NCBI RefSeq assembly: GCF_002077175.1
Contig: NZ_CP014943.1
Span: 3,658,001 to 3,722,000 of the forward strand
Direction of reading: 5' to 3'
Length of the DNA stretch: 64,000 nucleotides
Origin: Colwellia sp. PAMC 21821
Lineage (GTDB): Bacteria; Pseudomonadota; Gammaproteobacteria; Enterobacterales; Alteromonadaceae
A model generated the notes under the pieces. That model was not told where the DNA came from and did no database searches. It was given only the letters and a program-made list of their open reading frames with translations. The first letter of the stretch is position 1, and the number at the start of each line of letters is the position of its first letter. Below are positions 15,757 to 18,135 of this stretch, piece after piece. Both the position numbers and the translations under genes were made by a program.

Positions 15757-16116
15757 CTAGCTGCTAACGCGTTCGTTTGCAGCGTCGATTAATGGTTGCG
15801 ATCCATTTTGAATAAGTGCCAAGTTAGCTGAAACCGTTTTCTTTGGCAATTTACTAATCATCAAAGTACCTGTTTCAACCGAACCTTTAGTAGCAGCGAA
15901 TTCTAACAAGTTTTTACCGTTACACATAATACCTGCAAAGATATTACGGATTTTTAATTTATTTGTCTTTAAGAATGAACGCATACGTTTTTTGTCGTCA
16001 GCGGCAACATACTCACATACACTTTGTGCAACGTTAGCAGCTTGCGCTTTCGGGGCCGAAATAATAGACGTCATTGTTAAAGTAGTAATGGTAATAACTA
16101 GTAATAATTTTTTCAT
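15757..16116 (-). CDS. Small exported DUF3718 protein
   Basis: A 119-residue protein with a clear signal peptide (MKKLLLVITITTLTMTSIISA, cleaved near AQA-AN) and a mature part with two cysteines (SVCEYVAADDK and GIMCNGKNLLEFA). These could form one disulfide. The spacing and the KKRMRSFLKTNKLKIRNIF stretch match DUF3718, a periplasmic family common in Alteromonadales and Shewanella with no known function. It is monocistronic: terminator downstream, and about 290 bp upstream (16117-16406) with no gene. That gap contains an AAAACCAC (about 16156) and a facing GTGGTTTT (about 16229), which could pair or act as a protein site, but I cannot assign them. Confidence 0.82.
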   Translation of the reverse strand: MKKLLLVITITTLTMTSIISAPKAQAANVAQSVCEYVAADDKKRMRSFLKTNKLKIRNIFAGIMCNGKNLLEFAATKGSVETGTLMISKLPKKTVSANLALIQNGSQPLIDAANERVSS

Positions 16117-16539
16117 TTTAATAACCTTTTATAATACAAGTAGAGTTAGTAAAAGAAAAAACCACAGGATGTACCTAATAACACGGTAACTCCGCTGTCA
16201 TAGATAAAGAGTATATTTATCCTTAGACCGGTGGTTTTGCGTAACACGTTTTCGCGTGTTTTGCCTTTTCTTTGTCTATTTCAGTATCGCTAATGTAGCC
16301 ATAAATTGCAACATAACTGTAACAATCTATAGGTGATAGATGAGGTTATATTCGCCGTACTGTACACATAGCAATGCATTGATGAAGACGCTGATTATTT
16401 TAAGTTATACCAAATGTAATAAGTTATTGACCAATTTTAAGCGAGGATAAATTGTTCAAGAATACATGTTTATTGTTCCAGACTAAACATAAGTACCTGC
16501 ATATATGGACCCACTCCGTTTGCAAGACATTTAATCGTT

Positions 16540-16700
16540 ATGTAAGAGAAAATCATTGCTCTCATATATCCGGCCTGTTTATGAAGGATTTTTACCTTCT
16601 GGCCCCGATGGTTGTTTGCGCTCACACTCCTCATCATCCCTCCGGCTTTTTTTATTAGCCAATGCAAGTACCAGGTTTTGTGCAAGCCAGTCTGACTATC
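16540..16700 (-). ncRNA. Candidate bridge RNA (seekRNA) of the IS1111-type element
   Basis: In RNA sense (minus strand) the order is as follows. Stem arm GCTTGCAC (16687-16680). Target guide 1 GTACTTGCAT (16671-16662). A hairpin GGCT...AGCC. Target guide 2 GGGATGATG (16640-16632). Closing arm GTGTGAGC (16627-16620), which pairs with the first arm with two wobbles. A second loop then has ACCAT (16612-16608), an inner hairpin (AGAAGG/CCTTC) and ATATATG (16569-16563). Guide 1 equals the left flank GTACCTGCAT (16493-16502) except U for C, a G-U wobble. Guide 2 equals the complement of the right flank CATTATCCC (17906-17914) except one wobble. ACCAT and ATATATG match the two joined IS ends. Boundaries are approximate; no promoter was identified. 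Confidence 0.72.
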
Positions 16701-16800
16701 TTACCATCCGATTAATTTATCTTTTGCAACTGAAGTAAAAGGGTTTTACTGTTATCTCATCACTGAAACCAATCTAACTTGCTTCAGTTTTGAGCTTTAT

Positions 16801-17817
16801 TTATATAGCCGGGCGATAACTTTCCCCCTTCGCCATTATTACCCAAGCCATTCTTGCTATTTTATTCGCCACAGCAACGCATGCTTTGTTGTGTCCTCGT
16901 CGGGATTTTAACGCTTGTGCCCACAAACTAAATCGGTCAGTTTTGTTTTCACTGTGCCTTAATACTGCCCGGGCCCCGTGGATGTATAGTGTTCTTAAAT
17001 AACTATTACCGCGTTTACTTATACCGAGTAAGGTGGCCTTTCCACCCGTTGAATGCTGCCCAGGAACAAGCCCAAGCCATGCCGAAAAATGTCGACCATT
17101 TACAAAGTCTTTTCCATCTCCTGCCGCTGCATAAGTAGCGCTAGCTGTGATTGCCCCAATACCTAATATTTCATCTAAGCGAACACATATTTCATTTTCT
17201 TTATTCATCGTGTTTAAGCGAACTTCACACGCTTTAAACTTCACTTCTGTGACTTGAAATTCAAGCCATAACTCATTAAATATCTCCCGACTTAAATACG
17301 TTAACTCATTTGTCGCATCCTCTAAAATATCCGGCAGTTCATTGTGAATTGCAGAAATACCTTTATTGATGACAATGCCATATTCTCCTAACAAGCCTCG
17401 TATCTGACTTGCTAATGCTTTACGTTCTTTCTTTATGCGTTCACGTTGTCGATGGAAGTTTTGAATATCTTGTTGTTCTATCGATTTAATTGGCACAAAC
17501 CTCATGGTCGGGCGTTGCGCTGCCTCTGCAATACCTTCGGCATCGTTATAATCATTTTTATTGCCTTTAACGAAGGGTTTTACATATTGAGGCGCAATAA
17601 GTTTTACTTGGTGCCCCAATTCAATAAATTTTCTCGCCCAGTAGTTCGCACTGCCACAAGCTTCCATTACAATTAGGCAAGGCTCTAATGTTGCCATGAA
17701 ACTCAACACTTGTTTTCTTCTTAATTGTTTCTTTTTTACAAATCGCCCATTTTTATTCACAGCAAACATGTGAAAAATTGATTTTGCAATATCTAAACCG
17801 ATTGTAGTAATCTTCAT
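16801..17817 (-). CDS. IS1111-type transposase (IS110 family DEDD recombinase)
   Basis: A 338-residue recombinase. The N-terminal DEDD (RuvC-like) domain shows D9 (IGLDIAKSIF), E52 (IVMEACGSANYWAR), and D89 and D92 (NKNDYNDAEGI). A coiled-coil-like basic linker is at about residues 120-145. The C-terminal Transposase_20 domain has LDEILGIGAITASA and the catalytic serine region HFSAWLGLVPGQHSTGGK (Ser256), then LLGISKRGNSYLRTLYIHGARAVL. Length and order are those of an intact IS110-family enzyme. Members of this family act with an element-encoded bridge RNA that pairs with both target and donor; the non-coding region beyond this gene's stop fits that role. Confidence 0.95.
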   Translation of the reverse strand: MKITTIGLDIAKSIFHMFAVNKNGRFVKKKQLRRKQVLSFMATLEPCLIVMEACGSANYWARKFIELGHQVKLIAPQYVKPFVKGNKNDYNDAEGIAEAAQRPTMRFVPIKSIEQQDIQNFHRQRERIKKERKALASQIRGLLGEYGIVINKGISAIHNELPDILEDATNELTYLSREIFNELWLEFQVTEVKFKACEVRLNTMNKENEICVRLDEILGIGAITASATYAAAGDGKDFVNGRHFSAWLGLVPGQHSTGGKATLLGISKRGNSYLRTLYIHGARAVLRHSENKTDRFSLWAQALKSRRGHNKACVAVANKIARMAWVIMAKGESYRPAI

Positions 17818-18135
17818 TATGATCCACTCCGCTTTTATAAATGATTGTTGTCACTTTCATTTTGGCCCTAAAGAGGCCTGAAATAAAGTTGGAGTGGGTC
17901 CATACCATTATCCCTGCAGGCAAGGCGTTTGATTGATTAGGGCTTGGATGCCCGTAAGTAGAACAATGCAGGAGCTATTGTCGAGTAATAGCGGGCGTGT
18001 GTGATTGAAAACAACGCAGTTATTGACGATTTAAACCGCCTTAAAATGATCGATTATTTATTTCAATTGGTATTACTCATACTTTTATGAAAATAATTTA
18101 AATCGGTAAGCCGGTAGAGTTTGCCTACAAAATAA

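Follow-up and report, generated by a model that had tools for sequence, protein, structure and literature searches.

A candidate two-loop guide RNA of an IS1111-type insertion sequence in Colwellia sp. PAMC 21821 matches the element's own insertion target in a MITE-like repeat

How does an insertion sequence choose its target, and can the choice be read at a single locus? The question is raised by an IS1111-type element in the 64,000-nt stretch of the closed Colwellia sp. PAMC 21821 chromosome (4,884,300 bases) that was analyzed here (contig NZ_CP014943.1, positions 3,658,001 to 3,722,000; hereafter the window, whose numbering is used unless the genome is named). RNA-guided systems have been described for the IS1111 elements ISEc11, ISPa11, ISKpn4 and ISPst6, where the guide is called seekRNA (Siddiquee et al., 2024, PMC11187229), and bridge RNAs of IS110/IS1111 elements, with IS621, are treated in the available sections of Durrant et al. 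(2024, PMC11208160). An original prediction made for the window had placed such an RNA beyond the transposase stop codon and had matched its guides to the flanks of the insertion. We consider it very probable (roughly 0.93) that this IS1111-group element finds its target with a two-loop RNA whose sequence follows the transposase gene on that gene's strand. The RNA would fold into two loops, the target guides overlapping at an AT core. Guided by it, the transposase would place a circular copy of the element, always the same way round and without extra target bases, at a near-palindromic site of the MITE-like host repeat; by analogy with the published family, the RNA would be made, processed and bound by the transposase, and insertion would proceed through a circular intermediate and strand exchange.

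The element comprises 1409 bp (16502..17910, minus strand), as follows from the insertion point within GGG-AT-GCAGG in uninterrupted repeats and from the 25 full copies in the genome, and its boundary is ambiguous by the 2-base AT core; the start at 16504 assumed earlier is thus corrected to 16502. The transposase gene (16801..17817, minus strand) encodes, by translation of the reading frame, a protein of 338 aa with the IS110/IS1111 family domains DEDD_Tnp_IS110 and Transposase_20 (PF01548 and PF02371, both over the Pfam cut-off). Its translation contains GLVPGQHSTG, an instance of the GL-P----S(t)G motif named for IS1111 transposases (PMC11187229), and among solved structures only ISCro4 and IS621 gave sequence matches at E 0.001. 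Subterminal inverted repeats of 13 bp, ATGGACCCACTCC at the left end (17891..17903, minus strand) and GGAGTGGGTCCAT at the right end (16505..16517, minus strand), were read inside extensions of 7 bp (TAATGGT, 17904..17910, minus strand) and 3 bp (ATA, 16502..16504, minus strand). Right extensions of 3 bp are a feature of the IS1111 group. The repeat length falls within the 7-17 bp given for IS1111 elements in the available sections of PMC11208160, and left extensions of 7 bp occur in IS1111 elements as well (PMC11187229). The distribution of non-coding DNA, about 300 bp past the transposase stop codon vs. about 93 bp ahead of the start, is likewise that of the IS1111 group. Just upstream of the transposase start, at 17818-17819, the window copy reads TA where 24 copies read AC, deviating here more than any other of the 25 full copies.

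Genome-wide, 26 matches to the element were found, namely 25 full copies and one fragment, and all 25 full copies share the same ends, the same target core and a single orientation, with no target bases added in comparison with uninterrupted sites. The fragment is a truncated copy at 2339287-2340077 of the genome, which covers 791 of 1406 query bases and has the same MITE flank at its intact side. From the uninterrupted repeats the true target was established as CCTGCAGGG-AT-GCAGGTAC, the uninterrupted copies reading TTGCCTGCAGGG-AT-GCAGGTACTTA and the empty target sequence being CCTGCAGGGATGCAGGTAC; in the window its halves, each including the AT core, are GTACCTGCAT (16493..16502, plus strand) and ATCCCTGCAG (17910..17919, plus strand), as delimited by flanks and empty sites. 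The target implied by the original prediction, i.e., the two flanks joined around an ATAATG center, was rejected, as it has no match in the genome at ≤3 mismatches, and the target was therefore redefined from the uninterrupted repeats, which place its center elsewhere. A pattern search with the redefined target recovered 20 uninterrupted sites at ≤3 mismatches, including 11 exact ones. A single-base change of the target is present in four uninterrupted repeats, all empty; 11 intact targets are likewise empty, and none of the 24 IS-holding repeats is changed; this contrast gave a Fisher value of 0.017 (0.007 when the deletion in L066 is counted), for a comparison that was picked after seeing the data.

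Against this target the guides can be read in the minus strand. Guide 1 (the top-strand guide, 16662..16671), which would pair with AT-GCAGGTAC, is GTACCTGCAT in the other 24 full copies, a perfect 10-nt target match, and GTACTTGCAT in the window copy, where a private C-to-T change at 16667 (1 of 25 full copies) leaves a G-U pair. The match had been predicted with that G-U pair included; it holds and is stronger than claimed, the wobble pair being a private mutation of the window copy. Guide 2 (the bottom-strand guide, 16635..16641) is the short string AGGGATG. The earlier version of it, GGGATGATG, is present at 16640-16632, but its extent was wrong, for the right flank CATTATCCC with which it had been compared consists in part of the element's own end (4 to 6 of its 9 bases, 5 with the cut inside AT), given that uninterrupted host repeats read GGG-AT-GCAGG. 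The two target guides overlap at the AT core, and the top-strand guide (16671-16662) lies 5' of the weaker bottom-strand guide (16641-16635), on opposite target strands, which is the arrangement of IS1111 seekRNAs; the order of top-strand then bottom-strand guide in IS1111 is reversed in ISEc21 of the IS110 type (PMC11187229), so that the present element differs from that type in guide order. The window copy also has an extra A at 16653, within the loop of the hairpin that separates the guides.

The guide matches were compared with those in 3000 dinucleotide shuffles of the non-coding region, each set against the empty target. For the consensus copy (L002), the run of 10 Watson-Crick pairs in guide 1 was reached in 1 of 3000 shuffles, and the combined ordered match of both guides in none with Watson-Crick pairs and in 3 with G-U pairs allowed. 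The combined match of the window copy was reached in 0 of 3000 shuffles with G-U pairs and in 24 with Watson-Crick pairs only, because the private mutation breaks the run. Guide 2 on its own is not significant, being within chance (311-763 of 3000 shuffles).

The core of the putative RNA (16556..16696, minus strand) was delimited by an alignment of 18 sequences, their fold and covariation. RNAalifold recovers the two-loop layout, in which 97.0% of 468 cells are paired, vs. 33-44% in slid controls, and 14 of 26 pairs show two-sided changes. These include all 8 pairs of helix 1, the stem that closes the target loop, formed by GCTTGCAC on the 5' side (16680..16687, minus strand) and GTGTGAGC on the 3' side (16620..16627, minus strand). 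Four of five structure measures were reached by 0 of 500 shuffles and the fifth, further pair types, by 48 of 500, numbers that are not probabilities, since the aligned sequences are related. Folded alone, the window RNA is unremarkable (z -1.09), and the only Rfam match at gathering scores is a c-di-GMP-I riboswitch. The two-loop layout that had been proposed, including the closing stem at 16687-16680 / 16627-16620, is supported by covariation among relatives. Neither the same guides at unrelated targets nor a lack of conserved structure, either of which would have spoken against the original prediction, was seen among copies and relatives; its core, an IS1111-type bridge RNA or seekRNA with guides matching the element's own flanks, withstood all tests run, while its target center and the extent of guide 2 did not.

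The second loop carries, as predicted, ACCAT (16608..16612, minus strand), a possible pairing partner of the left-end ATGGT, and ATATATG (16563..16569, minus strand), a possible match to ATATAT of the right end. The former covaries in part. Where the left end is ATGGA, the loop has TCCAT (L129, L130) or, with a G-U pair, TTCAT (L041); the left end ATGAA of L040 is accompanied by TTCAT, and L035 retains the pairing via a G-U pair. The loop mismatches the left end in L038, L039 and L131, and the right-end match ATATAT is constant throughout the alignment. Together with the donor complementarity predicted for IS1111 RNAs in the available part of PMC11208160, the changes that follow the left end in L129, L130, L040 and L041 hint that the second loop might recognize the element's own ends by pairing. 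Somewhat short of an even chance, in our estimate, is that the target loop works as stated and the ends are recognized by protein through the subterminal inverted repeats, with no second-loop pairing. The ACCAT/ATGGT match of only 5 nt, the mismatches kept in L038, L039 and L131, the invariance of the ATATAT match, the fact that the donor matches, unlike the target guides, do not overlap at the crossover, and the sufficiency of an 82-nt RNA with target matches for ISEc11 (PMC11187229) all favor recognition by protein; the loop changes just listed (that of L041 through a G-U pair) and the predicted donor complementarity speak against it.

Judged by its sequence, the insertion site is near-palindromic and lies inside a MITE-like host repeat. 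In the window this repeat, interrupted by the IS, spans 16408..18072 (no strand assigned) and is about 256 bp long without it, as outlined by the flanks that 24 of the 25 full copies have in common, the uninterrupted copies and the repeat ends. It occurs in many copies with imperfect inverted ends (TACCAA.../...TTGGTA), as expected of a short MITE-like repeat with terminal inverted repeats, and its count is incomplete, 40 of 107 candidates having been scored. TTA stands on both sides of the window MITE (16405-16407 and 18073-18075); duplications at other copies were read by eye. Among the copies, identity continues into the flanks, for about 165 bases at one end of the element and 96 at the other. 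The presence of 24 of the 25 full copies in one repeat family would also be expected if the IS had ridden as a passenger inside the MITE, the constant flanks then reflecting movement of the MITE with no repeated RNA-guided insertion, and few separate insertion events can be counted among copies that are nearly identical. We consider this improbable. L009 resides in a variant of the MITE and L013 in a different repeat, which shares the target core, with one base changed in the left half of the target; haplotypes of IS and flank are not significantly associated (Spearman 0.13 over 23 copies, equaled or exceeded in 1,130 of 5,000 permutations, with low variation among the copies); and a passenger leaves unexplained that the other flanks of relatives, in other genomes, track their guides.

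This last point rests on relatives of the element, 22 loci being taken from public contigs and further ones from a survey of 394 same-order genomes, of which 62 had a match at E 1e-60. No relative was found in the viral contigs searched; at least 5000 plasmid records contain one, all under 60% identity among the matches listed. Pattern reading of the loop mostly failed in distant relatives, and the guide tests were therefore performed on close ones, whose non-coding regions align well, the guides excepted. The guide-1 test comprised 15 elements, those whose right flank was usable. Own-genome copies such as L001 and L013 were left out as the same IS as L002, and L030 as having the flanks and non-coding region of L029. 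Other loci were set aside for a right flank of only 3 and 7 nt at a contig end (L028 and L032, respectively), no right flank (L039), no right end found (L034 and L036, the latter with a run of N), contigs ending ahead of the region (L037, L046) or no matching end repeats (L043, L044, L047). From two further searches for relatives, including that of same-order genomes, only L129-L131 entered the test. The guide-2 test (16 elements) excluded L040 and L048, whose left flank is short or missing.

Guide 1 scored on average 7.6 of 10 on the flank of its own element vs. 5.4 on those of other elements, a sum reached by 0 of 200,000 permutations; the result was the same within the closest 11 elements and with one element per target. 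The own flank ranked first for 9 of the 15 guides (with ties of L031 with the L002 flank and of L038 and L131 with each other) and second for three (L033, L035, L129), and the test failed for three (L042, rank 5; L045, rank 9; L027, rank 12), so that guide 1 and flank go together in most relatives. Guide 2 follows the flank across groups (0 of 200,000 permutations) and weakly within the closest 12 elements (3,691 of 200,000), and showed no demonstrable link to it among the three elements of the L038 group (323 of 2,000 permutations); these data partly support a role of guide 2 in targeting. L048 is identical to the consensus copy L002 in 117 of 123 columns outside the guides (95%), differs from it in guide 1 and flank, and scores 9 of 10 with guide 1 on its own flank. 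The copies L158-L165 were read for guides outside the permutation tests, two of the eight regions (L163 and L165, both in G294) giving no parse. Genome G327 (L158-L162) has two IS types, represented by three and two copies, respectively, that agree in the second-loop 9-mer and disagree in their guides. In one of the two copies of the second type, the flanks are matched exactly over 9 bases by guide 1 and over 6 by guide 2, and in the other copy guide 1 meets a single mismatch; guide 1 of the first type pairs with its own flank at the cost of one or more mismatches. The two sister types, alike in the second loop and unlike in guides and flanks, form a natural retargeting pair.

The flanks of these elements also have a symmetry of their own: inverted repeats of 5-7 bp surround a GG center in 7 of 15 elements, and a permutation test of flank palindromes in 13 elements gave 3 of 100,000 values as high. 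A hairpin could therefore be recognized as such, the site being selected by the transposase or by folded DNA and not by the RNA, with the guide-like matches as a by-product. This explanation appears very improbable to us, as closely related transposases use different arms, each matching its own guides; the target in the window itself scores 0 on the strict palindrome measure, because one mismatch adjoins the center; and the RNA sets the target in this family according to published work (PMC11187229). Chance, for which one could cite guide 2 taken alone and the 24 of 3000 shuffles for the Watson-Crick-only combined match of the window, is practically dismissed by the 0 of 200,000 permutations across relatives and the 10-nt guide 1 that matches perfectly in 24 of 25 copies.

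With target choice by the two-loop RNA as the preferred reading, the element is a well-documented further example of the published IS1111 RNA-guided kind. RNA-guided targeting by IS1111 elements and natural redirection among relatives have already been published (PMC11187229), as has insertion into a MITE palindrome, in the available part of PMC5896051. The element resembles ISEc11, ISPa11, ISKpn4 and ISPst6 in transposase type, subterminal inverted repeats and the non-coding region downstream of the gene; as in IS1111 seekRNAs, each target strand is matched by one short guide, that for the top strand lying 5', relatives have been redirected naturally, and the target is a repeated or foldable sequence, there REP for ISPa11 and attC for ISKpn4 (PMC11187229). 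Element, target and host are different from theirs, and here a single genome lets one read, from sequence, how guide and target match, along with numerous copies, unoccupied targets and a mutated guide. With the IS621 bridge RNA, as presented in the available sections of PMC11208160, it shares a two-loop RNA, target guides overlapping at the core dinucleotide and a donor pairing proposed for the second loop; unlike in IS621, the RNA lies downstream of the gene, the inverted repeats are long and the donor pairing is weaker. Coxiella burnetii IS1111 is found in the MITE family QMITE2 in 20 of 21 cases, vs. 24 of 25 full copies here (available parts of PMC5896051; also PMC10969869), and QMITE2 differs from the MITE of the window both as a MITE and in its palindrome (PMC5896051); the available parts of that work contain no comparison of a guide with its target.

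The value of the locus lies in a legible natural experiment, since a guide, the target it used, 25 filled sites, 11 exact targets left vacant and one guide mutant are all present in one closed genome. The joint change of guide and flank in close relatives supports the published RNA-guided model outside the bench-tested elements, and the set of loci offers material for asking about guide length, tolerance of G-U pairs and a possible reading of the element ends by the second loop of IS1111 RNAs. We tentatively suggest, with rather less confidence than in an even bet, that this IS1111 subgroup specializes on palindromic host repeats and switches between them mainly by rewriting guide 1, the reader of the right palindrome arm, with little change in the RNA scaffold, the second loop or the site center (often CATGGAT). 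Such a rule would not be absolute, as guide 2 has also changed in G327. If true, guide rewriting would be the route by which such elements keep up with REP- and MITE-type repeats as these turn over from one genome to the next.

Several minor observations concern the host repeats and the neighborhood. Altered centers were seen in four uninterrupted repeats (L051, L057, L049 and L066), namely GGGATAATGGTAC twice, GGGATATGCAGG once and one deletion between TGCAGG repeats; L051 and L057 lie near 3059639 and 815719 of the genome. The GGGATAATGGTAC and GGGATATGCAGG centers look like scars of lost IS copies, and the GGGATAATGGTAC sites would fit loss of the element via recombination between GGTA repeats. 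A target-like palindrome, CCTGCATGGATGCAGG or a near form of it, may mark a second sequence type; one such site, at L013, holds an IS copy, and those at 1229302, 2716578 and 539727 of the genome are empty. Finally, the c-di-GMP-I riboswitch (16182-16275, minus strand, 73.4 bits in Rfam) is situated between the interrupted MITE and a gene for a 119-aa DUF3718 protein (15757-16116), and by this position the gene is probably under c-di-GMP control.
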